Positions 4,959-45,440 of a DNA stretch of 64,000 bases are shown here, piece after piece. The translations under genes and the position numbers were made by a program. Position 1 is the stretch's first letter, and the number at the start of each line of letters is the position of its first letter. Origin of the DNA: Syntrophus gentianae (GTDB lineage Bacteria > Desulfobacterota > Syntrophia > Syntrophales > Syntrophaceae); contig NZ_FOBS01000019.1 of the NCBI RefSeq assembly GCF_900109885.1, positions 1 through 64,000 on the forward strand. Direction: 5' to 3'. The notes below the pieces were generated by a model that was not told the DNA's origin, did not search any database, and was given only the letters and a program-made list of their open reading frames with translations.

Positions 4959-6869
4959 TTATTTTTCCCGCAGGAGCCGCTGCTCCCCTGCCCGGATCGT
5001 GAGTTTCGTCAGATCGAAATATTCCATCAGCGGGATGATGAATTTCCGGGACAGTCCCGTCAATTCCCGAAAACTGGCAGGCGTTGCCTTGCCTTCCTTA
5101 AGGAGAAGTTTTTTGTAATTCTCCCGGAGCTTCTGCAGACTCTCCGAATGGAAATAGAGCTCTTCACTGATTTTGACCAGGACGCCGTCCCGGAGCATGA
5201 CATCCATGACCTTGCGCGCCGAATCCTTTTTAGCGGCGTAGTGTTCCATCACTTCCCGCATCGTCGGCGGCGTCAGGCCCGCCTCCAGATAAAGACGATT
5301 CAAGGCCTCCCGCAGTTCCGCCAGGTCTTCCTGGAGCTGAACCGAGTGATCCGCAAGGCGGATGATCTCCCGGTCCAGAACGATTTTTCCCGTCCTTTCC
5401 AGCGCCTGGACGGCAGAGAGGTAAAGCCGCACCGGGACATGACGCCCCAGAACGGAACGCAGTTCTTCCTTGAGGGAGCCTTCCTTCAGTGGATATTTTT
5501 TATGGTATGCGCTTAATTCCTGAAGGATCTTCTGCTGGAGCTCCGAATGGAACGAGGCCGACACAACCGTGAGATTGTCCTTGTCCAGAAGGATGAGGGC
5601 ATGCCGCGAAAGAAGAGCATCCAGAATTTTTTTCAGCTTCGTTGAAGGGATCCCCGTGCGAACGACCAGCAGGGCAAGCGGAACGCCTGCCGGACCGGCC
5701 CGTTCAATGATGGCGATGGTTTTTTCCTCTTCGCTGCCGTGCTGAAGCTGCTCGAAGGACTCCAGGATGGCCGGGTCATTCCGTTTATGTTTCCGCGGCA
5801 GGGGATCCACGACGAGACCGCCGCCCAGCGTGGTGATGGGGGAATAGCTGCGGATGACGAAATGGTCGCCGGCCATGACGACCACCGGTTCCGACGTAAA
5901 GAACTGGGCGTAGGCCTTCTCGCCCGGCCGGAGTTCCTCCTGGTCCATCAGCAGGACTCTGGCCATGGTCTCACTTGTTCCGGTATGGAGCCGCACCAGG
6001 GAGCGGTGCACCAATTTTTTCTTATCGGGCGGGAGGTATTCCAGAAAGGTGTCGACCCGCAGCGTGGTCTTCATGGTATCCGGGTGAACCAGAACCTGCC
6101 CTCTCAAGATGTCCGTCTTCTCCAGTCCCTGCAGATTGATGGCTGTTCTCTGACCGGCTTCCGCCGTCGTCACCGCGGCATTATGGACCTGAAGCCCCCG
6201 CACTTTCGCGGTTACGGTTCCCGGAAGCATCTGTACGGTGTCCGCCACACTGACCTGGCCGGACCGCAACGTCCCGGTCACGACAGTCCCGAATCCACGG
6301 ATGGTGAAAACCCGATCCACAGGGAGCCGGAAAATCCCGGTATCCGGTTCCTCTTCAATTCCGGCGGCCACCCGTTCCAGGGCGGCCAGGAGATCCGGCA
6401 GGCCTTCGCCGGTCTGAGCGGATACGGGGATAACGGGAGCGCCTTCGAGAAACGAGCCTTTCAGAAAATCGGCCAGGTCTTCCTGGATAAGCTCCAGCCA
6501 GTCCCGATCGACGAGATCGATCTTGGTCAGCGCCACGAGTCCCTTGCGGATGTTGAGGAGGGAACAGATCTGCAGATGCTCCCGGGTTTGCGGCATAACG
6601 CCTTCATCGGCGGCAATGACCATCAGGACCATGTCGATGCCCGCAGCCCCGGCCACCATGTTTTTGACGAACCGTTCGTGGCCCGGAACATCAACGACGC
6701 CGCAGACACGGCCGCTGCTGAGGCGCAGAGAGGCAAACCCCAGTTCGATGGTGATGCCCCGCTCCTTCTCCTCCTTGAGTCGGTCGGTATCCACCCCGGT
6801 CAACGCCTTGATAAGCGCCGTCTTTCCGTGATCGACGTGACCGGCCGTGCCCAGAACAATGTGTTTCAT
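4959..6869 (-). CDS. selB: selenocysteine-specific elongation factor SelB
   Basis: This 636-residue GTPase delivers selenocysteyl-tRNA to the ribosome at UGA codons that carry a SECIS hairpin. The G motifs are [11 protein letters not shown] (G1, residues 8-18), [10 protein letters not shown] (switch I), DVPGHERF (G3) and TKIDLVD (G4). EF-Tu-like beta-barrel domains follow ([15 protein letters not shown]). The last 270 residues are SelB-type winged-helix repeats that bind SECIS RNA. Length is normal and the gene is intact. Its presence supports reading the three in-frame UGA codons of the bam genes as selenocysteine. selA, selC and selD are not in the window. Confidence 0.97.
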
Positions 6870-23828: not shown

Positions 23829-23988
23829 TCATGACCGCGATTTCTTTGAGCAAACGAATGTGCTCCTGGAGGGATGAACTTTACAGCAAATTTTCTGCTT
23901 GATGGGCCATGAATACCCAAACCTGCATCAAACGGCGTCAAATCGTTTGCAGACAATGCGAACGGCCAAATACACAGAGGTAATAAAA

Positions 23989-25971
23989 ATGCGATACGGA
24001 GAAACAGGGTATAACCTAGAGATCGATTTAGCGACGGGGAATATTGAACGGGTGGAAACGTACCCGAAATCAGTCGAAACCCTTCTCGGAGGGCAGGGTA
24101 CGGCCTTGAAGATACTTTGGGACAGGGTTCCCCCTGATGTTGAACCCTTTTCTCCCGATAATCTGCTCATCTTCAGTGCGGGTCTTCTGCATGGCACGCC
24201 CGTTCCAGGCGCCAACCGTACCAGTGTCAGCACGATCAATCCCCAGTCAAACCTTTACGTTCATTCCGGATTCGGAGGCTTTTTCGGACCGGAACTGAAG
24301 CATGCGGGTTACGACCAGATCATCATTCGCGGCAAATCTCCCCGCCTTGTTTACCTGTGGATCCACAATGACAAGGTAGAAATACGGGATGCGAGTCAAC
24401 TCACCGGGAAAAGCGCTCGTGAAGTTGCCGTTCTTATTCAACAGGAGTTGAAGGACAGCAAAATCCAGGTGGCGGCCATCGGCCTGGCCGGAGAAAACCG
24501 GGTCTATCAGTCTACCATCGAACACTCCAACTCCAGCGCCTCTCAAGGGGCAGGCACAATCATGGGGGATAAGGGAATCAAAGCGATTGCCGTGCGGGGA
24601 AATAAGGAGATCAATATCGCCCGACCGGCTGACCTTTGGGAACTATGCCTTCGTCAATATCAGAGAATTTACGATAACCCCTATTGCGGCGATGTCTTCC
24701 TGCGTGAGGAGGACGATTCCTGGCACGCCAATCATTTCGCCTGTGGTGATGCGCAGGGGCGGGCAAGAGGTTATTGGAACAAAGAACTTCAGGACGAGTG
24801 GACGGTGCGTGTTGAAAGTGTGCGGACTTACCTCCAGTGGGAAAATTACAGCCAGGTCATGGAGGAGATGGAGGAAACGGTCGTTGAAACGAGCAAGATG
24901 CTGAGGGGAACCGCCTGTTACAACTGTCCGAAGGAATGCCATCAGGCGATTTCCCTGCCGAATTCGCGCAAATATTTTCTAAAATCCTACTGCAAACTTG
25001 CTTATGCGAAAGCGGCCTACGAGGATACGAAGCTTAATTACGATGTGCTTTGCGCCATCCAGGATTACGGCCTGGATGAATTCGCCATGCATCACGTCCT
25101 TTCTTTTGTCGTTGAACTATGTAACGCCGGCATTTTAACGGACGCAGACCTGCCGGAGTTTCCTGCCGAGGTCGAAGGCAGAATGATCTATCTGGCTGAA
25201 AAAATCGCCCAGCGGGAAGGGGTCGGCGATAAGCTGGCTAAGGGGATCTATGAGGCCGCTCGTCAGATCGGTAAGGGAGCGGAAGCCCATGTTCGCAATA
25301 TCACGAAAAAAATCGAGCAGGCGCCCCTCAGACAGGAAAAAGTCAATTACCCGTATTTTCTGATGTATGCCACCGGAGACAAGACCAATATCACCCAGGT
25401 CGAAGGCTCTTTTCCCCAGCAACCCATCCCCGATCCGGAGGAGCGGAAAAAATTCGTAGAATGCTGGGAGGCCGCTCCGGAGAAATTCAAAAAATGGTTC
25501 CTGGAATGGGAACCGGGTCAACAGCTTCCCATCGAAGCGGCAGTCAACATTGCCGCCTGGAACGAGGTGATGCATTACGTCGATGATGCCGTCGGCATGT
25601 GCACCTGGCTGTCATCGTTCCGAGGTCAATACGGCGGAAGCCCCCCTTATCACCTTTATAATCTGCCGAAGTACATCCACCTGGCTGCCGGCATCGAGCT
25701 CGATCCTGAAAAGCTTTGGGAAATCGGGAAAAGAAACCGCAATCTGGTCAGGGCCATCAATGTGAGAAGAGGCATGCGAAGAGCCGATGAACAGCCGCCG
25801 GAGGCCCATTGGAAAGAAAGGGATCCGGAGGCGGAGCAGCAACTCCTGGATGCCTATTATGAATTCAAAGGTTGGACACGAGATGGTATTCCGACCAGAG
25901 AGACGTTGGACAGTCTGGGCTTGGATTACGTGAGCGAAGATCTCGTAAAGCGGGAGATCCTGAAGGGCTAG
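23989..25971 (+). CDS. bamB: BamB-like tungsten oxidoreductase, divergent copy (BamB1)
   Basis: The 660-residue protein belongs to the aldehyde:ferredoxin oxidoreductase (AOR) family, BamB type, the catalytic subunit of class II benzoyl-CoA reductase. The cofactor domain has YLWIHNDKVEIRDA. The cluster ligands are CYNCPKEC and DDAVGMC. I chose ATG at 23989 because it matches the MRYxETGxNLE start of the paralogs. Three motifs conserved in the other two copies are altered: KCFxK is KSYCK, FAWGN is FACGD and FSTPQ is FAMHH. An extra stretch of about 25 residues precedes the first cysteine motif. It may have another substrate or a regulatory role. Confidence 0.85.
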   Translation: MRYGETGYNLEIDLATGNIERVETYPKSVETLLGGQGTALKILWDRVPPDVEPFSPDNLLIFSAGLLHGTPVPGANRTSVSTINPQSNLYVHSGFGGFFGPELKHAGYDQIIIRGKSPRLVYLWIHNDKVEIRDASQLTGKSAREVAVLIQQELKDSKIQVAAIGLAGENRVYQSTIEHSNSSASQGAGTIMGDKGIKAIAVRGNKEINIARPADLWELCLRQYQRIYDNPYCGDVFLREEDDSWHANHFACGDAQGRARGYWNKELQDEWTVRVESVRTYLQWENYSQVMEEMEETVVETSKMLRGTACYNCPKECHQAISLPNSRKYFLKSYCKLAYAKAAYEDTKLNYDVLCAIQDYGLDEFAMHHVLSFVVELCNAGILTDADLPEFPAEVEGRMIYLAEKIAQREGVGDKLAKGIYEAARQIGKGAEAHVRNITKKIEQAPLRQEKVNYPYFLMYATGDKTNITQVEGSFPQQPIPDPEERKKFVECWEAAPEKFKKWFLEWEPGQQLPIEAAVNIAAWNEVMHYVDDAVGMCTWLSSFRGQYGGSPPYHLYNLPKYIHLAAGIELDPEKLWEIGKRNRNLVRAINVRRGMRRADEQPPEAHWKERDPEAEQQLLDAYYEFKGWTRDGIPTRETLDSLGLDYVSEDLVKREILKG

Positions 25972-26047
25972 CGAGGTCATTCCTTCAAAGAGGTTCCAAA
26001 GGGTTTCAAGTCCATTTGGACGGGTAAAAAAATAGAAGAGGTAAAAA

Positions 26048-28024
26048 ATGAGGTACGCAGAAACTGGGTTTAATTTAGAAGTCGATCTATCCCAAGGAAG
26101 CGTTAAGCGGGTGCCGACAGACCCAAAATTAACCGAACTTCATCTGGGCGGGCAGGGTACTGCCCTGAGAATACTGTGGGATCGGGTTCCTCCTGAAGTC
26201 GATCCCCTGGCTCCCGAGAATGTGCTCATCTTCAGTGCCGCTCTTTTGCACGGTACGCCGGTGGTCGGTGCGAACCGCACCAGTGTGAGCACCATTTCTC
26301 CCCAGACAGGTTTATATGTGAATTCGCTGATGGGAGGGTACTTCGGACCGGAGTTGAAATTTGCCGGCTATGACAAGATTATTCTTACCGGAGAATCTCC
26401 CAAGCTGGTTTATCTGTGGATCCACAATGACAAAGTGGAACTGCGCGATGCGAGCCATCTCCAGGGAAAAGGGACGCGGGAAACCGCAGCCATCCTTGCC
26501 AAGGAGTTGAAAGACCCCAAGGTGCAAGTGGCGGCTATCGGCCTGGCCGGTGAAAACAGGGTCTATACGGCCAGCATTGAACACTACAACTCGAGCGCCG
26601 CTCGACATGGGGTGGGTGCGGTCATGGGATCCAAAAGGTTAAAGGCCATCGCGGTCCGGGGTACCAAGGACGTCAATATCGCCCATCCGGCTGAGCTCTG
26701 GACGATCAGCCAGGTCAAGTACAAGGAAATTCACGAGAACCCGAACGCCGGGGACCCCATGGCGCACGATCATAATGAAAGCTTCCATGTGGACAATTTC
26801 GCCTGGGGCAATGCACGAGAGCGAAGGAAGGGTTACTGGAACAAGGAGCGCGAAGAGAGATGGGTGGCGCTGTGGAAAAGAATCCGGCTGAGGGATACGA
26901 GTTGCTACAACTGTCCAAAGGACTGCCATTATCTGATCTCCTACCCGGGGCGGTCCACCTATCACCTGAAATGCTTCAACAAACTGACTTACACCATGGC
27001 GGCCTTCGAAGAGATCGACTTCAATTACGATATCCTCGGACTTACCACCGAATACGGATTGGACGGATTTTCAACGCCCCAGATTCTCGCCTTCGCCATG
27101 GAACTTTATCAAGCAGGGATTCTAACCAATGAAGACCTGCCTGGATTCCCCGAGGACAACAGGGGACGGTTCTTCTATCTCCTGGACATCATGGTTCATC
27201 GCAAAGGGATGATCGGCGATGCCCTGGCCCAGGGTGTTTACCGGGCAGCCCGGATCATCGGCCGAGGAGCCGAGGAATACGACCACAATACCACAAAGAA
27301 AGTGGAGCAGGTGCCGCTCAAACTGGGCATCGTCAATTTTCCCTTCTTCCTGATGTACTGCACCGGGGAGAAGATGAACATCACCCAGATTGAAGGTTCG
27401 TTCCCCCAGGCTCCTTTGAAGTTGGAGAAGAGAAAAAAGTTTGTCGAAAATTGGGCTGCAGCTCCGGAGAGGTTTAAAAAATGGTTTATGGAATGGGAAC
27501 CCCGGCAACACATGCCCATCGAGGCGTCTGTTGCGGCCTGTGACTGGAATGAAACCATGCATTTCGTCGATGACGCCATCGGGACATGCGCCTGGTTGTC
27601 GTCCTTCCGAGGCCAATTCGGCGGCTCGCCTCCTTATCATATTTTCAATCTTCCTGATTATATCTCCCTGGCCACCGGAATGGATATGGATTCCGACAAG
27701 CTTTGGGAAATCGCACAGAGGAACCGGAATCTCCTGCGGGCCATTAATGTCAGAAGAGGCTTGAGACGGGATGAGGAGAAACCGCCGGAAGACCATTGGG
27801 CAATTCGAGATCCCGAAATGGAGCAGAAGCACCTCGATGCGTATTATGAATTCAAGGGTTGGACAATGGACGGCATTCCTACCAAAGGGAGGCTTGAAGA
27901 ACTGGGATTGGGCGACGTGGCGGAAGACCTCATCAAGAGAGGAATCCTGACAGGTAACGAAGTTTATATCAAGCATGAGACTCCGTCGCTAACAGAAGAA
28001 TTGAAAGTGAATGTCAGGGGGTAA
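26048..28024 (+). CDS. bamB: benzoyl-CoA reductase catalytic subunit BamB (BamB2)
   Basis: This is the canonical copy, 658 residues, starting MRYAETGFNLEVDLSQG. Binding of the tungsten bis-pyranopterin and the [4Fe-4S] cluster is indicated by CYNCPKDC and the distal DDAIGTC. YHLKCFNKL carries the cysteine that, as I recall from the Geobacter BamBC structure, coordinates tungsten. HVDNFAWGN and GFSTPQ are intact. It would carry out the ATP-independent two-electron dearomatisation of benzoyl-CoA in the cytoplasm. AGAGGT precedes the ATG and bamC follows after 5 bases. Confidence 0.92.
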   Translation: MRYAETGFNLEVDLSQGSVKRVPTDPKLTELHLGGQGTALRILWDRVPPEVDPLAPENVLIFSAALLHGTPVVGANRTSVSTISPQTGLYVNSLMGGYFGPELKFAGYDKIILTGESPKLVYLWIHNDKVELRDASHLQGKGTRETAAILAKELKDPKVQVAAIGLAGENRVYTASIEHYNSSAARHGVGAVMGSKRLKAIAVRGTKDVNIAHPAELWTISQVKYKEIHENPNAGDPMAHDHNESFHVDNFAWGNARERRKGYWNKEREERWVALWKRIRLRDTSCYNCPKDCHYLISYPGRSTYHLKCFNKLTYTMAAFEEIDFNYDILGLTTEYGLDGFSTPQILAFAMELYQAGILTNEDLPGFPEDNRGRFFYLLDIMVHRKGMIGDALAQGVYRAARIIGRGAEEYDHNTTKKVEQVPLKLGIVNFPFFLMYCTGEKMNITQIEGSFPQAPLKLEKRKKFVENWAAAPERFKKWFMEWEPRQHMPIEASVAACDWNETMHFVDDAIGTCAWLSSFRGQFGGSPPYHIFNLPDYISLATGMDMDSDKLWEIAQRNRNLLRAINVRRGLRRDEEKPPEDHWAIRDPEMEQKHLDAYYEFKGWTMDGIPTKGRLEELGLGDVAEDLIKRGILTGNEVYIKHETPSLTEELKVNVRG

Positions 28025-29807: not shown

Positions 29808-32800
29808 ATGGAAAAAGAACAGATCGAACAGCTTTGCAAAAGCTTCGGAAATAACCGTTTTGGAGACGTCATGGTCGTCGGCGGCGGGATCAGCGGCATT
29901 CAGGCCTCTCTTGATCTGGCCACGGCGGGTTTCAAGGTATACCTGGTGGAGCAAGGGCCCAGCATCGGGGGTCATATGGCCCAGTTGGACAAGACCTTCC
30001 CCACCAACGACTGCTCCATGTGAATTCTCTCACCGAAACTGGCCGAGGTCGGCCGGCATCCAAACATCGAGATACTGACGTATACTGACGTTGACAGTGT
30101 CGTCGGAGAGGCGGGAGATTTCACGGTAACCGTCGTTAAAAAGCCCAGATATATTCTGGAGGACAAGTGTACGGGGTGCGCCGTCTGCACGGAGTACTGC
30201 CCGGTACAATACCCGGATTCATTCAACCAGGACATCTCCTATAACAAATCCGTCCACGTCTATTTTTCTCAGGCGTTCCCCCTGGTGGCCTATATCGACG
30301 AGAGCTGCCTCTACCTGAAGGATAAGAAGTGTACGCTCTGCCAGAGAGTCTGCAAGGCGGACGCCATCGATTTCAAGCAGAAGCCGCAGAAGGTGGAGAT
30401 CAATGTGGGAGCCGTCATCCTGGCGACCGGCATGGAACCTTTTGACCCCGGCGAAAATGCGGAATATCACTACGGCGAGTTTGCCAACGTGGTCACCAGC
30501 ATGGATTTCGAGCGGCTGCTGTCCGCCACGGGAGCTTACGGTGGTGAAATCCTGCGGTCTTCCGACAGGAAGCACCCCCATAAAATCGCCTGGATTTCCT
30601 GTGTCGGTTCCCGACGGGTCACTCCGGGGGAGAACAGCTATTGTTCCGGCGTCTGCTGCACCTATAACCAGAAACAGGTGATCCTGACCAAGGAGCACAA
30701 CGCCGAGGCGGAGTGTACGATCTTCCATAATGACATCCGTTCCTTCGGGAAGGACTTCGAGCGGTTCTACCAGAGAACCGCCGATCTTCCCGGCGTCCGG
30801 TTCCTTCGTAGCTACGTGTCCATCGTAACAGAGGACCCCATTACGAAGAATGTGACGATCCGCTATTCCACGCCCGATGAAGGGGTCAAGGAAGAAGAGT
30901 TCGAGATGGTGGTCTTGTCCGTCGGCCTGAATCCTCCGGACAAGGCAAAGGAAATGGCGGCCAGGTTCGGGATCGATCTCAATGCCCAGGGATTCTGCCT
31001 GACAAATCCAGCCAATCCCATGGAGACCAGCCAACCCGGCATCTTTGTCAGTGGCGGCTTCCAGGGACCGGCGGATATTCCCGATTCGGTTCTGACGGCC
31101 AGCGCTGCCGGCTCGCAGGTCGGTGAACTCCTTGACTACCGGCGCGGGAAGCTATCCACGGAAAGGGTCTATCCGGCGGAGAGGGATGTCTCCCAGGAGG
31201 AACCAAGGATCGGTGTCTTTGTGTGCCATTGCGGGGCGAACATCGGCCGGATCGTCAATGTGCCGGAAACGGTTGAATACGCCCTGACCCTGCCCAACGT
31301 GGTCTACGCCCAGGAGCAGCTTTTTGCCTGCGCTACGAATTCCGCAAGGGAAATCACCGACATGACCCGGGAAAAAGGTCTCAACCGCGTGGTCGTCGCG
31401 GCCTGCTCGCCACGAACCCTGGAACCCCTCTTCCGGGACACCGTCCGGGAAGCGGGAATCAATCAGTATTACTACGAAATGGCGAACATCCGGGAGCATA
31501 ATTCCTGGGTGCATGCAAAGGAAAAGGAAGACGCCACGCAGAAGGCCAAGGATCTCATCCGGATGTCGGTGGCGCGGGCCCGCAGTCTGGAGCCCCTGCC
31601 CGAGTATGATCTGCCGGTGGACAATGCAGCCCTGGTCGTGGGCGGCGGAGTTGCCGGAATGATCTGCGCCCTCTCCATTGCCGACCAGGGACACGAGGTT
31701 TACCTGGTGGAAAAGGAGGGAAAGCTGGGTGGAACGGCAAGAAGAGTCCATTACACCCTGGAAGGGATGGATGTTCAGGCTTACTTGGACGATCTGATCA
31801 GGAAAGTTTATCAAAACCCCCTGGTGCATGTCTACACGGGTGCAACCATCACGGAGGCCGGCGGCTACATCGGAAATTTCGTAACGAAGGTGAATTCCAG
31901 CAGAGGTCCTGCGGAGATCAAGCACGGGGCCACGGTCATCGCCATCGGGGCAGAGGAATACAAGCCCATGGAATACCTCTACGGCCAGGATGAGCGGGTC
32001 CTGACCCAGCTGGAGCTGGAAGGCCTGATCGCCGGAGAGGATGATAAGATCCTCAATGCCGAGAACCTCGTAATGATCCAGTGCGTGGGCTGCCGGAACG
32101 AGGACCGGAATTACTGCAGCAAGATCTGCTGCACCCATGCGATCAAGAATGCCCTGAAGCTGAAGGAGAAAAACCCCCGTGTGGACATCTTCATCCTCTT
32201 CAGGGATATGCGGACCTACGGGTACGCCGAGGATTATTACCGGGAGGCCTCGGAGAAGGATGTCCGGTTCATCCGGTTTGAGGCGGAAGAGGCCCCGACG
32301 GTGGAAGCGGTGCTAGAGGAAGGCAAGCAGGTCCTGCGGGTGACCGCGCCGGATTACATCCTCGGCCAGAAGCTGGCCCTGGACGCGGACCTCCTCGTTC
32401 TGTCCGCCGCCACGATTCCTTCGCAGACAACGCAGGACATCGCGAGCCTGTTCAAGGTCACGTTGAACCCGGATGGCTTCTTCAAGGAAGCCCATGTGAA
32501 ACTGCGGCCTGTCGAGTTCGCGACAGACGGCGTTTATCTCTGCGGCATGGCCCAATATCCCAAGCATATCGCGGAAACGATCAGCCAGGCCTATGGAGCC
32601 GCAGGCCGTGTCCTGACACTCCTATGCCGGGATATCGTGACGGCCTCGGGCGCGGTGGCCCAGGTGGATGAAAACCAGTGCGTTTCCTGCGGGGCCTGCA
32701 TCACGGTCTGTTCGTACGGCGCCATCGACTTTTACGAGTCGCCGCAGGGCAGAAGAGCCAGGGTGAATCCCGTCCTCTGCAAGGGAGACGGGGTCTGCAA

Positions 32801-32984: not shown

Positions 32985-33764
32985 ATGACGACAGGACTGG
33001 AATTTAAGCCCAAGATACTCGGTTTTGTATGCCAGTGGTGAGGGTACGGCGCAGCTGACCTGGCTGGAGTTTCCAGACTGCAATATGCGACCGATATTCG
33101 GCTCATCCGTGTCATGTGTTCCGGCAGAGTCGATCTGACCCATGTATTCAAGGCTTTCTCGAAGGGGGCCGATGGGGTGTTCGTCATCGGGTGCCACCTG
33201 GGGGAATGCAACTATATCACCCATGGGAATTACCATGCGTTAAGCACCGTTCAGCTGGCGAAGAAGATTCTGGAACGGGTCGGGTTGGATCCCGGACGGC
33301 TGAGAATTGAATTCATCTCCGGCGCCGAAGGCGTCCGCTTTGCCGAAACCATGAATGATATTGAAAAGAAGGTGAAGGCGCTGGGACCGCTCGGCGAAGC
33401 CGAAGGAATCGCCAAAGATACACTGGCCGCCAAACTGGCCGCCGTGACGAGATTGCTCCCCTCCATTCGACTGGTGGAGAGGGAAAGGATGAGATTATCC
33501 CCGAACCTTAAAAAGAGGGAAGAAGTCGAAGCCTTTTTCAAAAGTAAGGAGGTGGATAAGATCTTCGATGACTTGGTCGGCGACAAGCTGGCGATCAGTG
33601 AGATCATGTCCCTCCTGCGGCAGCAGCCCCTTTCCACGGGAGAAATCGCTGAACGGTTGGGCCTCTCCCCTTCTGCCGTATCGAGACATATGAATACCTC
33701 ATCGAAACACGGACTGGTCCGGTACGATGTAGAACAGAAGCGCTACACCCTGGCCGCAGCCTGA
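32985..33764 (+). CDS. bamF: BamF, MvhD-like protein with selenocysteine at codon 19 and C-terminal HTH
   Basis: The 259-residue protein requires UGA at 33039-33041 to be read as selenocysteine. The motif is FVCQW-Sec-GYGAADLAG, where MvhD proteins have C-x-W-C-x-Y-x-x-A-D at the [2Fe-2S] site. The MvhD domain continues to about residue 140 (FVIGCHLGECNY). A further 120 residues end in a winged helix-turn-helix (STGEIAERLGLSPSAVSRHM). It probably passes electrons between BamE and partners. The start is ATG 32985 after GGGGTGAG; no in-frame start downstream of the UGA would retain the N-terminal cysteine motif. Confidence 0.92.
33064..33076 (+). promoter_or_regulatory. SECIS-like hairpin of bamF
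   Basis: CTGGA (33064-33068) pairs with TCCAG (33072-33076) around GUU, with the G-U about 27 bases after the UGA. The stem is short; flanking GCAG (33051) and CTGC (33078) can extend it with an asymmetric bulge. Confidence 0.5.
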
Positions 33765-36857: not shown

Positions 36858-38429
36858 ATGTTAAGAATGCAAGCAATCCCGGAGGAGTTTAACATCGTAA
36901 GCTACCTGCTGGACAGGCACCTTGAGGAGGGACGAGGCAACAATATCTGTATCTATTATGAGGACGAGAAGATCACCTACGCCCAGGTTGCGGAACAGTC
37001 CTGCCGGATCGGCAACGCACTGCTCTCTCTGGGCTTGGAGATGGAGAACCGGGTCGCCCTCAGCATGGCGGACCGGCCGGAATTTTTCTGCAGTATCCTG
37101 GGTACCATGAAGGCCGGCATCGTCCCGGTCTTGCTGAGCACCATGGCCATTCCCAAGGATTACCTCTATTACCTCAATGACAGCCGTGCCAAAGCCATGA
37201 TTGTCGACGAGACCGTGCTGTCGAAAGTTCTGGAAGTAAAAAATGAACTCAAGTATCTGAAACACCTCATTGTTGTGGGAACTCCGGCGGCAGCCGGCCA
37301 GTTGAGTTACGACGAGATCACGAAGGCAGCCTCTCCAAAGCTGGAGACGGTTCTGGTCAACAAAAACGATCAGGCATTCTGGCAATACAGCTCCGGGACG
37401 ACCGGGCAGCCCAAAGGCGTGATCCATCTCCATAAAGACCTGATGTATGCGACCGCTCATTGCGATGACGTGGTGAAAGCCGGTGTAGATGACATTTCCT
37501 TCGGCCTGTCCAAGCTGTATTTCTCCTATGGCCGCAACAACAACTTCGACACCGTCCTCCTGAGTGGTGGAGCAGTTGTTCTCTTCCCAGGGATGCCCAA
37601 ACCGGAGTCCCTGTTCGAGGTCATCAAAAAATACAAGCCCACGATCTATTACGGCGTGCCCAGCTCCTACATGGCCATGATTGCCCTGATCGACAAGGGA
37701 TACGAGTATGACCTCACCTCCCTCAAGGCCTGTGTATCCGCCGGTGAAGCCCTGCCCAGGGTGACCTTCGATCGTTGGCGGGAATTGACCGGCATATCCA
37801 TTCTGGATGGTCTGGGCTCCACCGACGTCGGCTTCATCTACCTGTCCTGCACCCCCGAAAACCTGAAGTTCGGGACCTTGGGCCATGTCCTGGCCAATGT
37901 GGAAGGCAAGCTCTGTGACGAGGACGGCAACGAAGTTCCCCAGGGCGAACAGGGAGAAATGTGGATCAAGAGCGGCTGCACGGCGGACCGTTACTGGAAC
38001 AAACCGGAGAAGAACAAGGCCGCCTTCATCGGCGAGTGGTTCAAAACGGGCGACAAGTTCTATATCGATGAGGAAGGATACGTTGTGGGGGCCGGCCGCG
38101 CCGATGACATGCTGAAGCCCGGTGGAATCTGGGTCTCCCCCGTCGAGGTGGAAAATGCGATTCTCGGCCATCCCGCTGTTGCGGAAGCCGGTGTGATCGG
38201 CGCCGCGGACAAGGATGAGCTGGAAAAACCCATGGCCTACGTCGTCCTCAAGGAAGGATATGAGGCATCTCCGGAGCTCACTAAAGAGATCCAGGATCTG
38301 GTCCGCGGCAAACTCGCCCACTACAAGGCCCCTCGCTGGATCCATTACGCCAAGGAACTGCCCCGGACGGCAACCGGCAAAGTCCAACGCTACAAACTTC
38401 GCCAACAGGTGAAAGAAACAGGATTGTAG
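36858..38429 (+). CDS. bamY: benzoate-CoA ligase (AMP-forming)
   Basis: The 523-residue ANL enzyme resembles benzoate-CoA ligases. It has QYSSGTTGQPKGVIHLHKD (adenylate loop), SAGEALPRVTFDRW, GLGSTDVGFI, KTGDKFYIDEEGYVVGAGRA, and PRTATGKVQRYKLRQ with the catalytic lysine. It converts benzoate or a close analogue, ATP and CoA to the aryl-CoA, AMP and pyrophosphate, the entry step for the Bam complex. It follows bamI by 77 bases with GAGGAGGAG before the ATG. Benzoate specificity is inferred from context. Confidence 0.85.
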   Translation: MLRMQAIPEEFNIVSYLLDRHLEEGRGNNICIYYEDEKITYAQVAEQSCRIGNALLSLGLEMENRVALSMADRPEFFCSILGTMKAGIVPVLLSTMAIPKDYLYYLNDSRAKAMIVDETVLSKVLEVKNELKYLKHLIVVGTPAAAGQLSYDEITKAASPKLETVLVNKNDQAFWQYSSGTTGQPKGVIHLHKDLMYATAHCDDVVKAGVDDISFGLSKLYFSYGRNNNFDTVLLSGGAVVLFPGMPKPESLFEVIKKYKPTIYYGVPSSYMAMIALIDKGYEYDLTSLKACVSAGEALPRVTFDRWRELTGISILDGLGSTDVGFIYLSCTPENLKFGTLGHVLANVEGKLCDEDGNEVPQGEQGEMWIKSGCTADRYWNKPEKNKAAFIGEWFKTGDKFYIDEEGYVVGAGRADDMLKPGGIWVSPVEVENAILGHPAVAEAGVIGAADKDELEKPMAYVVLKEGYEASPELTKEIQDLVRGKLAHYKAPRWIHYAKELPRTATGKVQRYKLRQQVKETGL

Positions 38430-39220: not shown

Positions 39221-40771
39221 ATGTTGCAAGATCGTAGGATGTTAGGACTTATATTAATTGCAGTTCTTGGCATTTTGATCGCGATGGCGCAGCCATTTGC
39301 ACCTGGGTTATCGCCCCTGGGACATTATGTCATGGGTACTGTTCTGTTTGGCTTGGGGATGTGGATCTTCCGTCCCGGCATGTTGCCTTTTATGTCGGGG
39401 GTTTCCTTCATCCTTGGCGTTACTCTGGCACTCTTTTTTGCTTTTAAAGCCGGGCTGGTCTTTCCGGGTAAAGTACCCTTTAAGTCACCGCAGCAAATTT
39501 ATGGGGTCGTCATGGGCGGGTTTACGTCGTCTGCCGTCTGGACCTTGATCCCCGCACTGTTTTTCGGTTTTGTTCTCCAGAAAACGGGGTTGGGCAAACG
39601 CATCGCCTATCTGGTATTGAAAACCTTCCCGGCGAGTTGGCTGGGTTTGGCAATCAGCTGGCTTGTAATCGGCGTTGCCCTTTCCGCCTTGTCGCCTTCC
39701 AGCACCGTCCGGGTGGCCATCGTCGTTCCCATTGCCATCGGGATTGTGGAAGCCTGTAAACTGGAGTTCCGCTCCAGGGGGTCGGCCTATGTCTGTCTTT
39801 TGGCCTGGGGGATGGCCGTCATTCCCGGAACGGGATGGTTGACCGGTTCTCTGTCGGGACCGATCATGCAGGGATTCTTTCCTCCGGAAATCAAAGCCAT
39901 GTGCAATTTCGACGACTGGTTCCGTATCCTGGCCCTGCCCTGGTTTGTGATTACGATTGTGTATGTTGCTTTGTCCTATCTCATTGCCAAGCCGAAAGAA
40001 GCCATCGGCTTTTCGTCCGACCTGTTCCAGGAGGAATACAAAAAACTGGGACCGATGTCGAAGGATGAGCTCATTACGATGATTGTCATCATTCTCTCGC
40101 TGGTTATGTTTTCCACGGAAAAGATGCATGGGATTCCCATCCCGGCAACAGCCCTGGGTGCCCTGTTCCTTCTTATCCTGTTCCGTATCATTACCGCCCC
40201 GGAGATCCCCCCCGGGATAAACTGGGACGTGGTCTGCTTCTTCGGTATTGCAGTCGCATTACCCTCCATCTTCGCGGTTTCCGGTATCTCCGAATGGTTA
40301 GGTCCCCTGATCAAGGGACCGATCATGTCCGTAGCGGGCGCGCCCCTGCTGTTCATGCTGATCATCACTGCGGGGCTTTTGCTTATTCGGTTCGTGGACG
40401 TCCCCTGGGGCTTCACGACCTGTGCATTGACCATCATGCTGCTGATCCCGCTCCTCAAGGATTTCGGCTATCATCCCCTGGTTGTGACCATGGCGTACCT
40501 GATCGCCATCAACTTCTTCCTGCTGAGTTACCAGCAACCCTGGATTCCCATGGCTGAAGGGATGATTCAAGGACGAGGATGGGCGCCGGCTCATGTGGCC
40601 GAGTTTGGTCTGATCTACGTTGCTTCGGCCTTCATTTCCTTACTGGTGTCTGTGCCCTATTGGAAGATGATCGGCGTTATCCGTTACTTAATAAATCATA
40701 AAAGCAAAATCATCGGCCCCGGATATGGACAGAATCTTGTTTATGTCCGGTGCTTATTTCTTCTTGATTGA
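39221..40771 (+). CDS. DASS/SLC13-type anion:cation symporter
   Basis: The 516-residue integral membrane protein has about twelve hydrophobic segments. The SSxxNTP-like family signature appears degenerate (LSALSPSSTVRVAIVVPIAIG). Further segments are WDVVCFFGIAVALPSIFAVSG and YLIAINFFLLSYQQPW. DASS carriers import dicarboxylates, sulfate or related anions with sodium or protons. Its position after the benzoate-CoA ligase suggests uptake of aromatic or other organic acids, which is inference. AAGGAGGGT precedes the ATG; the last 20 residues look non-helical. Confidence 0.75.
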   Translation: MLQDRRMLGLILIAVLGILIAMAQPFAPGLSPLGHYVMGTVLFGLGMWIFRPGMLPFMSGVSFILGVTLALFFAFKAGLVFPGKVPFKSPQQIYGVVMGGFTSSAVWTLIPALFFGFVLQKTGLGKRIAYLVLKTFPASWLGLAISWLVIGVALSALSPSSTVRVAIVVPIAIGIVEACKLEFRSRGSAYVCLLAWGMAVIPGTGWLTGSLSGPIMQGFFPPEIKAMCNFDDWFRILALPWFVITIVYVALSYLIAKPKEAIGFSSDLFQEEYKKLGPMSKDELITMIVIILSLVMFSTEKMHGIPIPATALGALFLLILFRIITAPEIPPGINWDVVCFFGIAVALPSIFAVSGISEWLGPLIKGPIMSVAGAPLLFMLIITAGLLLIRFVDVPWGFTTCALTIMLLIPLLKDFGYHPLVVTMAYLIAINFFLLSYQQPWIPMAEGMIQGRGWAPAHVAEFGLIYVASAFISLLVSVPYWKMIGVIRYLINHKSKIIGPGYGQNLVYVRCLFLLD

Positions 40772-41841: not shown

Positions 41842-42603
41842 ATGCCCCCCGCCTATAAAAGCGTACCGGCTATAGAAAAATGCTTCACCATTCTGAATCT
41901 TTTTTCAAAAACCGATAAATACCTTGGAATCAGTGAGATTTCCAAACAACTGACGCTGAACAAAAGTACCGTATTCAATATCATCTATACCCTTGTCGAC
42001 CTGAAGGTACTCGATGACCTGGGTGATGGCAAATTCGGCTTCGGGCCCCACTTCTTCATTCTGGGCAGTACATCCGGCAAACGCTCCAGGTTGCTCCAGG
42101 TCGTCCATCCTTACCTGGAAAGAATCAATAAAGAGACAAGACTTCCGGCATTCCTTGGAATACGGTCCCATTTACAAACGGTGCTGATCGACAAGGCGGA
42201 TTGGGCCCACGGGATTACCCTGTCTTCAGCAATTGGCATGCAGATGCCTGTTCTCGGAGGGGTGGGAATCAAGGCCATGCTGTCTCTGCTTCACCAGGAC
42301 GAAGTGGAGAAACTCATTGGAAGCACCACTCTGGAGAGATTCACCGACCATTCAATCACGGATAAAGGCAAATACATCGAGGTGATCGACAAGGTCCGTA
42401 GAGAAGGGATCGCCTTCGACAGGGAGGAGTATGTAGAGGGGATGTTGGCTGCGGGAGTGCCCATCAAACCACATAACCGTCAAATCCAGGCTGCCGTCTG
42501 GATCGTGGGACTGCAGCATCAGTTACCAGAAGAATCGTTGTTGAAGGAAGGGGAACTGCTCAAGGGGATAGCCCAGGAAATCAATCAAAGGTTGGGATGG
42601 TAG
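41842..42603 (+). CDS. IclR family transcriptional regulator (iclR2)
   Basis: The 253-residue protein is a close paralog of iclR1. The helix-turn-helix (LGISEISKQLTLNKSTVFNI) and the effector domain (GITLSSAIGMQMPVLGGVG, AFDREEYVEGMLAAGVPI) match throughout. It precedes bamB3 and bamC2 as iclR1 precedes bamB1-bamC1. I infer control of that cassette and possible cross-regulation through the shared operator. Confidence 0.9.
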   Translation: MPPAYKSVPAIEKCFTILNLFSKTDKYLGISEISKQLTLNKSTVFNIIYTLVDLKVLDDLGDGKFGFGPHFFILGSTSGKRSRLLQVVHPYLERINKETRLPAFLGIRSHLQTVLIDKADWAHGITLSSAIGMQMPVLGGVGIKAMLSLLHQDEVEKLIGSTTLERFTDHSITDKGKYIEVIDKVRREGIAFDREEYVEGMLAAGVPIKPHNRQIQAAVWIVGLQHQLPEESLLKEGELLKGIAQEINQRLGW

Positions 42604-42762: not shown

Positions 42763-44823
42763 ATGCGATACGGAGAGGCAGGGTATAACTTAGAAATTGA
42801 CTTGGCAACCGGGAACATTGAACGGGTGGGAACAGACCCAAAGACGGCCGAAACCTGGCTCGGGGGCCTAGGGACCTGCATCAAGATTCTTTGGGACAGG
42901 ACAACCGCTGAAACCAAAGCATTTGATCCGGAAAATCCCCTGATATTCAGCAATGGTCTGCTGGCCGGCACACCGGCTCTCAGTTCGAATCGCACCCTGG
43001 TGTGCTGCATTTCCCCGCTGACGAACCTGTTGAGCTATCCCATGGGGGGAGGATTCTTCGGTCCGGAACTGAAGTATGCCGGCTATGACAAGTTGATCTT
43101 AACCAACAAGTCGGACAAGTGGGTGTATATCTACATCAACAATGACAAGGTGGAAATACGGGATGCCGAGCATCTGCTGGGCAAGGGCGCCCTGGAGGTT
43201 CAGCAGATTCTCAAGGATGAGGTGAACGATCAGAGGGCCCAGGTCGCCGCCATCGGTCCCGCCGGGGAACACAAATCGCTCCTTGCTACCGTCGAGATGG
43301 ACAAGGGAAGTGCCAGCCGGCTCGGATCGGGCGCCGTCATGGGCGACAAGAAGGTAAAAGCCGTCTTGGTTCGGGGCACCAAGGATGTCAATATTGCCGA
43401 CGGACCCGCCTTTATCGAGGCATTGCGGGACTTGCGGGCCTTTGTCGAGCACCGTAACGCCAATCCCCTCTCGACAAAATTTTTCATGGATATTCACACC
43501 GGTGTCGGCTCGCCTCAGGCGATGAAACACGTCAATGAAAAGTGGCATACCGAAGGCTTCGCCTGGGGAAATGCCCGCTTCCGAAGAAAGAATTTCTGGA
43601 GCGATGCGCTCGAGGCCGAGTGGACAAAGATCCAGTACGGCGCGATCAAGCGGTTCATCAGCTGTTTCAACTGCCCACAGCAATGCGGGGCATTGATCTG
43701 GCACGAGGATGATCCCCCTTACATGGCAAAATGTTTCTCAAAACTGTCCTATCTCTTTGCCGCCGTCGTAGACGACCAGAATTTCAGCTGGCAAATCTGT
43801 TCCCGTGCCTTTCAGTACGGTGTGGACTCCTTCTCCACCCCACAGTGTCTTGCCTTCGCCGTGGAACTGCGCAGGGACGGAATTTTGACCGAGGAGGATT
43901 TTGCGGGAACGGACGCCTATCCTCCCTGTCCGCCGGAAGAGGACCACGCCGGGGTCTTCCTCTGGATCCTCGACCGGATTGGCCGGTGGGAGGGAATCGG
44001 TCAGATCATCGGTTTGGGAACCAAGCAGGCAGCCGAAAAGATCGGCAAGGGCGCCATGGAATATGCGCACAACCTCATCAAGGGCGAGGAGCAGATGTGC
44101 GTCAAGCTGGGCATGCTGGATCCCCTGTACTTCCTCATGTTCTCCACCAACGAAAAGCAGAGCATCACCCAGATCGAGGGCAACTGGCCGCAGGAGGCCT
44201 TCCATGATTATCAGGATCGACTGGACTGGATTGCGGACTGGCCCCATGTTCCCGATGAACGGTTCAAGCAGTATCTGCTCGATTGGGACCCCAAGGGAGG
44301 AAAGAATGCGGCCCCCTATTACCCGACCCCGCCGATTGCCTCGGACATCGTGGACTGGATGGAGGAGACGCACAACTACGACGATTCACTGGGCCTCTGA
44401 TGTGGAATGGGAGGCTTCTGTATGAAGCCTGCATACCATGTGAAAAATTACTACAAGTTTGTGAATGCGGCAACAGGACTGGATCTGGATCAATATTCCC
44501 TCCGGAAGATCATTCACCGGAGTCGTAATCTGCACCGGGCCTTCAACCTTCGAAGAGGCATGACCCGGGCCGACGACAAACCACCGGAAGATCATTGGAA
44601 GTATCGCTTCCCCGAGATCGAGGAAGAACTCCTGACGACCTATTACGATTTCAAGGGGTGGAATTATGACGGAGTTCCCACCCGCGTTCGCCTGGAAGAA
44701 CTGGATCTGGGGTATGTTACGGACGAACTGGAAGGGCTGGGGATCTTGAAGAAAGTGGCTCCCCCGACCGCGAAGGAGCTTGAAGCGTATCAGAAAGATC
44801 GCAAGTGGAAATGGGGATATTAA
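42763..44823 (+). CDS. bamB: BamB-type tungsten oxidoreductase with selenocysteine at codon 546 (BamB3)
   Basis: Read through the UGA at 44398-44400 this gene encodes 686 residues, the normal length for BamB. The UGA aligns exactly with the fourth cluster cysteine: DDSLGL-Sec here, DDAVGMC and DDAIGTC in the paralogs. The 141 codons after it are clearly conserved (RNLHRAFNLRRGMTRADDKPPEDHW). CFNCPQQC, MAKCFSKL, EGFAWGN and DSFSTPQ are all present. Sec is followed by Cys, then FCM. It starts at ATG 42763 after GGAGGAAAG. It may be a class II aryl-CoA reductase with altered cluster chemistry; substrate unknown. Confidence 0.93.
44412..44430 (+). promoter_or_regulatory. SECIS hairpin of bamB3
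   Basis: AGGCTTC (44412-44418) pairs perfectly with GAAGCCT (44424-44430) around the loop UGUAU. The stem starts 11 bases after the UGA and the loop G-U lies 20-21 bases after it, the same geometry I recall for E. coli fdhF. Confidence 0.8.
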
Positions 44824-44900
44824 TAAGTTAGAGATCAGCTCACCTTCATTCAGGCTGAGATTTTGTTTCCGAATACATGGAAAAGAGAGGTTATTGGAAA

Positions 44901-45440
44901 ATGGCCAAAGTTAAGAAGATCGTAAAGAAAATTACCGTTGACGCGGATCTGTGCAACGGCTGCCGGTCATGCGAAGTCATGTGTTCCGCCGCTCATTCCA
45001 CACCGCTATGGAGCACCTATAATCCGGCGAGGGCCCGTGTTCAGGTCATTCGTATCCCACTGAAGGACATCTACATGCCGGTATTTGCCGGGGAGTATAC
45101 CCCGGCGGAATGCGCAGGCAGAGTCAGCTATAACATTGACGACAAGGAATACGAAGAATGCGCCTTCTGCCGGGCAGTCTGCCCGTCCCGGGGAAGGTTT
45201 GTTGAACCCGATTCCGGTCTCCCGCTGGGATGCGATTTCTGCGAAAGTGTTGAGAATCAGAACGAGCCGGTCTGTGTGGATTGGTGCATCCGTGACGTTC
45301 TTAAATACGAGGAGCGGGAGGAGGAAGTGGAGGAACAACTGAAGATTAATGAGGTAGAGACAGGGTTGTCTGCCATGGCAGACAAATTCGGTTGGGACAA
45401 GATCCTGCGGACAGCTGTCCGGCTGACGCAGAAGGCCTGA
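44901..45440 (+). CDS. bamC: BamC-like iron-sulfur subunit (BamC2)
   Basis: The 179-residue protein is a paralog of BamC: CNGCRSCEVMC, CAFCRAVCPS, CDFCESV and CVDWC mirror the BamC1 cysteine motifs, and EPDSGLPLGC matches EPDSGLPIAC. I chose ATG 44901, after AGAGAGG, over the ATG at 44877. It follows bamB3 and would be its electron-transfer partner. No BamD-I copies follow, so this pair must share the first set, use ferredoxin or have partners elsewhere. Confidence 0.9.
   Translation: MAKVKKIVKKITVDADLCNGCRSCEVMCSAAHSTPLWSTYNPARARVQVIRIPLKDIYMPVFAGEYTPAECAGRVSYNIDDKEYEECAFCRAVCPSRGRFVEPDSGLPLGCDFCESVENQNEPVCVDWCIRDVLKYEEREEEVEEQLKINEVETGLSAMADKFGWDKILRTAVRLTQKA

Follow-up and report, generated by a model that had tools for sequence, protein, structure and literature searches.

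Predicted selenocysteine at the fourth cluster-ligand position of a BamB-type tungsten subunit from Syntrophus gentianae

Results

An in-frame UGA in a gene for a BamB-type tungsten subunit

The window, a stretch of 64,000 nucleotides from Syntrophus gentianae, contains bamB3 (42763–44823, forward strand), a gene predicted to encode the catalytic subunit of an AOR-family (BamB-type) tungsten aryl-CoA reductase. Its codon 546 is a UGA (44398–44400, forward strand) at the invariant cysteine of the DDxxGxC motif, and this UGA is very likely recoded as selenocysteine (Sec). We consider it probable that bamB3 is a selenoprotein gene and that Sec546 replaces cysteine as the fourth [4Fe-4S] ligand of the tungsten subunit. 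Sec at the fourth cluster-ligand position is the reading best supported by the evidence presented here.

The reading frame of bamB3 starts with ATG at 42763 and consists of 545 codons, the UGA and another 140 codons before the TAA at 44821–44823, giving 686 residues when the UGA is read through. The UGA is the sole in-frame stop before the TAA; the gene is otherwise intact, with no other lesion in 686 codons. The preliminary description of this DNA had noted a UGA interrupting bamB3 with homology on both sides. This is borne out, and the two halves form one AOR-family protein. The read-through product contains the domains AFOR_N and AFOR_C (219 and 178.7 bits, respectively, both above the cut-offs) and aligns almost end to end with BamB of Geobacter metallireducens (PDB entry 4z3w; E = 8e-229, sequence identity ~52%). 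The predicted structure of BamB3 (pLDDT 87, pTM 0.91) superposes on 4z3w with TM-scores of 0.93/0.97 and on the AOR of Pyrococcus furiosus with 0.76/0.85. As judged from its sequence, this product is best explained as the catalytic subunit of a class II aryl-CoA reductase. Among low-potential reductions in biology, the one catalyzed by enzymes of this class is among the most demanding. The substrate of BamB3 may differ from that of Geobacter BamB, since the two belong to separate clades in the tree.

A gene for an IclR-family regulator (41842–42603, forward strand) is located upstream of bamB3, as it is upstream of the closest ortholog, and a gene for a bamC-like Fe-S electron-transfer subunit (44877–45440, forward strand) follows. 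The latter gene order is kept in L083 and L084. The closest ortholog, L042, lies in the order IclR-bamB-bamC-bamD-bamE-bamF. The homolog L022, from the same genus as the host, adjoins genes for a CoA ligase and a DASS-type transporter, and the window has both as well (36858–38429 and 39221–40771). Taken together, these neighbors point to an aromatic-acid degradation locus, and the host bacterium appears to live by syntrophic aromatic-acid breakdown. The two paralogs BamB1 and BamB2 (23899–28024) are encoded in the main bam cluster of the window. They form a divergent clade with an SSFRGQ motif, far from Geobacter BamB, and their substrate may not be benzoyl-CoA.

Codon 546 and the cluster ligands

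Homologs were collected from the same genome, from 155 genomes of the same order/class and from a phylum sample of 395 genomes, and further from the family (17 genomes) and order/class (85 genomes) of the closest ortholog; among the matches in these order/class, phylum and family sets no other Sec-BamB was found. In the preliminary description, DDSLGL-U was aligned with DDAVGMC and DDAIGTC, the corresponding motifs of the paralogs BamB1 and BamB2, and a comparison of this column across homologs was suggested. The alignment holds, and every other homolog examined has cysteine at this position. Among 82 distinct homologs codon 546 is TGC in 60, TGT in 21 and TGA in bamB3 alone, i.e. 81 of the 82 carry a Cys codon. 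With the UGA read as Cys, column 546 is also invariant in an alignment of 34 sequences.

The cluster motif of the family consists of CxxCxxxC and a distal D-x-x-G-x-C. In BamB3 the first three cysteines are present, whereas the codon of the distal one is UGA; the motif would be complete with Sec counted as the ligand. The three other presumed [4Fe-4S] ligands, C301-x2-C304-x3-C308 (43663–43686, forward strand), are invariant in 81 of 81 scored homologs and are equivalent to C299, C302 and C306 of 4z3w. In 4z3w the counterpart of residue 546 is Cys534, as counted from the alignment and verified in a second check; in an AOR paralog encoded in the same genome it is the cysteine of DSTGLC. We take the residue in this column (Cys494 of P. 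furiosus AOR) to be the fourth cluster ligand throughout the AOR family and infer the ligand role of residue 546 from this equivalence. Cys494 is presumably also the cluster cysteine that contacts the pterin. In a review that quotes the AOR structure of 1995, one cluster cysteine is given as lying within hydrogen-bonding distance of pterin N-8 (PMC10221389).

A second segment of the phmmer alignment with 1aor placed Cys553, rather than residue 546, on the DSAGLC cysteine. This pairing was judged to be an alignment shift because 4z3w has a proline at the position equivalent to Cys553 and the alignment with AOR paralogs places residue 546 on that cysteine.

C324 of BamB3 (43732–43734, forward strand) is a cysteine in 79 of 81 homologs and is equivalent to the tungsten-ligating cysteine of G. 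metallireducens BamB, whose residue number we take to be Cys322. An equivalent of C324 is absent from the AOR paralogs of the same genome. Coordination of tungsten by a cysteine has been described for G. metallireducens BamB (PMC12727526).

Two cysteines follow Sec closely in the sequence. Cys547 (44401–44403, forward strand) comes immediately after it and is cysteine in only 6 of the 82 homologs. Cys553 (44419–44421, forward strand) is a feature of this BamB clade (GFC-x-KP or SFC-x-KP) and occurs in 22 of the 82. The adjacent cysteine had been pointed out correctly before; the further one had been placed six residues after Sec, whereas Cys553 is seven residues after Sec and six after Cys547. 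Among characterized selenoproteins the thioredoxin fold with a redox motif predominates (reviewed in PMC13188914), and with two cysteines nearby Sec might be inserted for thiol redox chemistry, as a selenenylsulfide with Cys547 or Cys553, or for protection against oxidation, instead of cluster ligation. However, few homologs have Cys547, and Cys553 is a long-standing feature of a whole Cys-only clade, so that no redox pair has evolved along with Sec. Furthermore, position 546 is the presumed fourth cluster ligand of the family and is invariant in all homologs. The selenenylsulfide put forward in the preliminary description thus has cysteines at hand but is less likely than ligation, and a role of Sec outside the cluster is improbable.

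Selenocysteine machinery and other UGA codons of the genome

A tRNA-Sec scoring above the cut-off was found in the genome. The Sec-specific elongation factor is encoded within the window by selB (4959–6869, reverse strand; TIGR00475, 382 bits with a cut-off of 242), and SelA and SelD are encoded outside the window. The formate dehydrogenase FdhA, also encoded elsewhere in the genome, has a UGA at the canonical Sec site. The SelD gene (L086, G000:C3) has an in-frame UGA of its own close to the N-terminus (GAG-U-ACKIGPGDL).

Two genes in the window, each with UGA at a classical Sec site, serve as internal positive controls. The HdrA-like BamE has a UGA-encoded Sec (30021–30023, forward strand) in the motif DCSM-U-ILSPK, and the MvhD-like BamF has one (33039–33041, forward strand) in the motif VCQW-U-GYGAADLAG. 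The UGA of BamF is in frame and the start of this gene is therefore located upstream of the listed open reading frame at 33114. Similarly, BamE, in which the UGA is in frame as well, would be mis-annotated with a start at GTG 30285. The 54 nucleotides from the UGA of BamE are nearly identical to those of a BamE copy in L084, from the same genus. Sec-containing BamE has been reported in Desulfococcus multivorans (PMC5109826).

A putative bSECIS hairpin

A putative bSECIS element (44398–44445, forward strand) is located at the UGA of bamB3. It consists of a 7-bp apical stem (44412–44418/44424–44430), a 5-nt loop (44419–44423, UGUAU) and a lower stem. With the U of the UGA as nucleotide 1, the apical stem comprises nucleotides 15–21 and 27–33 and the loop nucleotides 22–26. 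The spacing is identical in the SECIS element of FdhA, which has the loop GGUCU. The loop of the BamE hairpin is AGGU, and a G-U in the loop is common to bamB3, FdhA and BamE. Aligning the BamB3 and BamE hairpins with each other at the DNA level gave no useful information.

Against dinucleotide-shuffled sequences the bamB3 hairpin has a z of about −5, and none of the other candidate TGAs in the window, 114 in all, is as extreme. It is also the most extreme among the equivalent stretches of the compared homologs, of which the next has a z of −2.3. With random synonymous codons for the same peptide, on the other hand, 30% of the versions fold as stably as the bamB3 hairpin, and known SECIS elements of the same genome are likewise unremarkable under this null model. 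Hairpin stability was rejected as strong proof of Sec on account of this fraction (0.30). The folding energy is weak evidence because the peptide G-F-C-x-K-P by its nature writes GGCUUC...GAAGCC. The hairpin fits Sec through its geometry and not through its energy.

A similar apical hairpin is present in two Cys-bearing BamB paralogs, L010 (G000:C25) and L023, which have the motif CCICCGMSGFC and the hairpin loop UGCCU. The stretch in bamB3 may have been predisposed to turn into a SECIS element. As the coding sequence of bamB3 already favored a hairpin, this provides a hint at the origin of new Sec sites.

Constraint and descent

A TGA at codon 546 is found in one genome only. Stops within the other fetched matches are located at or past the natural C-terminus, and when 84,980 species genomes were scanned with a peptide pattern, a single relative was confirmed, which bears Cys. 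The closest ortholog, L042, is 78% identical to bamB3 and has Cys at position 546. Amino-acid identity to L042 amounts to 77% before the UGA and 81% after it; for L022, which also has Cys, the corresponding values are 70% and 74%. Downstream of the UGA, dN and dS between bamB3 and L022 are 0.16 and 0.78, respectively. The dN of bamB3 is lower in this part than in the upstream part, and substitutions are mostly at third positions. In the tree bamB3 is the sister of L042 (support 99/94), with L022 and L021 next. The branch of bamB3 (0.16) is not accelerated compared to that of its sister (0.14). L042, L022, L021 and all other homologs examined carry Cys and therefore Sec is the derived state in the bamB3 lineage. 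The preliminary description had named several observations that would speak against Sec, and none of them came up; in place of one of these, a stop with decayed downstream sequence in related genomes, the relatives show Cys.

The occurrence in one genome would also fit a recent nonsense mutation that leaves bamB3 truncated or dying, and the energy of the hairpin can be explained by the peptide. However, in the closest Cys ortholog 206 codons are one substitution away from any stop (55 from TGA) and only 4 are codons of presumed cluster cysteines, whereas the lesion in bamB3 would have fallen on the codon of an invariant Cys. Moreover, no other lesion and neither decay nor relaxed constraint downstream are observed, and other genes of the genome carry UGA at canonical Sec sites. 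A dying gene is thus a very unlikely explanation. The codon is read from one assembly, and a sequencing or assembly error could have converted TGC or TGT into TGA. Such an error must strike exactly codon 546 of a gene without any other defect, in an assembly with an estimated completeness of 99.99% whose other Sec genes read normally. This explanation is most unlikely of all.

Discussion

The preliminary description proposed Sec at the cluster cysteine of an AOR-family enzyme. The complete Sec machinery, the conservation of the coding sequence beyond the UGA, the FdhA-like geometry of the hairpin and the invariant Cys column agree in supporting this proposal. According to the mechanism suggested here, SelB and Sec-tRNA would decode UGA 546, aided by the hairpin just downstream, and would yield a BamB-type subunit of 686 residues with Sec as the fourth [4Fe-4S] ligand. 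Sec546 would be the cluster residue that touches the pterin and would have arisen from Cys within this lineage. Since one cluster cysteine of AOR is close enough to the pterin for a hydrogen bond and is taken to be the equivalent of residue 546, selenium would be located on the route of the electrons, with the BamC-side Fe-S relay to one side and the tungstopterin to the other. Selenium might alter the potential of the cluster, its coupling to the pterin or the resistance to damage, but any redox effect is speculation.

We regard it as fairly likely that BamB3 represents the first Sec in the AOR/tungsten oxidoreductase family, with a native Sec-ligated [4Fe-4S] cluster and selenium at the contact of cluster and pterin, gained from Cys in one lineage in a stretch already prone to a SECIS-like hairpin. 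A search of the open-licence literature found neither a Sec member of the AOR/WOR family nor a description of a Sec-BamB; an earlier account may exist elsewhere. A review from 2026 that covers 119 families and subfamilies of prokaryotic selenoproteins has no match for the AFOR Pfam accessions or for the terms 'aldehyde' and 'benzoyl' (PMC13188914), and a classification of WOR enzymes from 2026 makes no mention of selenium (PMC13328260). A survey from 2006 lists 19 selenoproteins of Syntrophus aciditrophicus, with neither AOR nor BamB among them (PMC1794560). This is in line with the Cys of L022.

If the assignment is correct, the natural exchange of Cys for Sec together with a 78% identical Cys sister is a ready-made test of the role of the cluster ligand. 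It would also provide an Fe-Se handle for spectroscopy and add one more family to the prokaryotic selenoproteome.

Among known systems, BamB of G. metallireducens (4z3w) shares with BamB3 the fold, a similar length, CxxCxxxC and the DDxxG part of DDxxGxC, a cysteine matching the tungsten ligand and a BamC-like partner gene. BamB3 differs in the UGA/Sec in place of Cys534, in its clade and in a short C-terminal extension. With the AOR/WOR family in general it has in common AFOR_N and AFOR_C and would also share the tungstopterin and a single [4Fe-4S] cluster. Natural variation of the cluster ligands is known from one tungsten enzyme of P. furiosus, which has three Cys and one Asp (PMC10221389). 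Sec-containing class II BCR complexes, with BamE of D. multivorans and MvhD/BamF-type subunits, have Sec in the same enzyme family, as do BamE and BamF of the window. In these complexes Sec resides in electron-transfer subunits that resemble HdrA and MvhD, whereas in BamB3 it would be in the catalytic subunit. Sec-containing formate and formylmethanofuran dehydrogenases, like BamB3, have Sec in a W/Mo pterin enzyme, and the geometry of the bamB3 hairpin resembles the SECIS element of the formate dehydrogenase FdhA from the same genome. In those dehydrogenases the binding partner of selenium is the metal held by the pterin cofactor (PMC13188914, PMC11656701), whereas in BamB3 it would be the Fe-S cluster.
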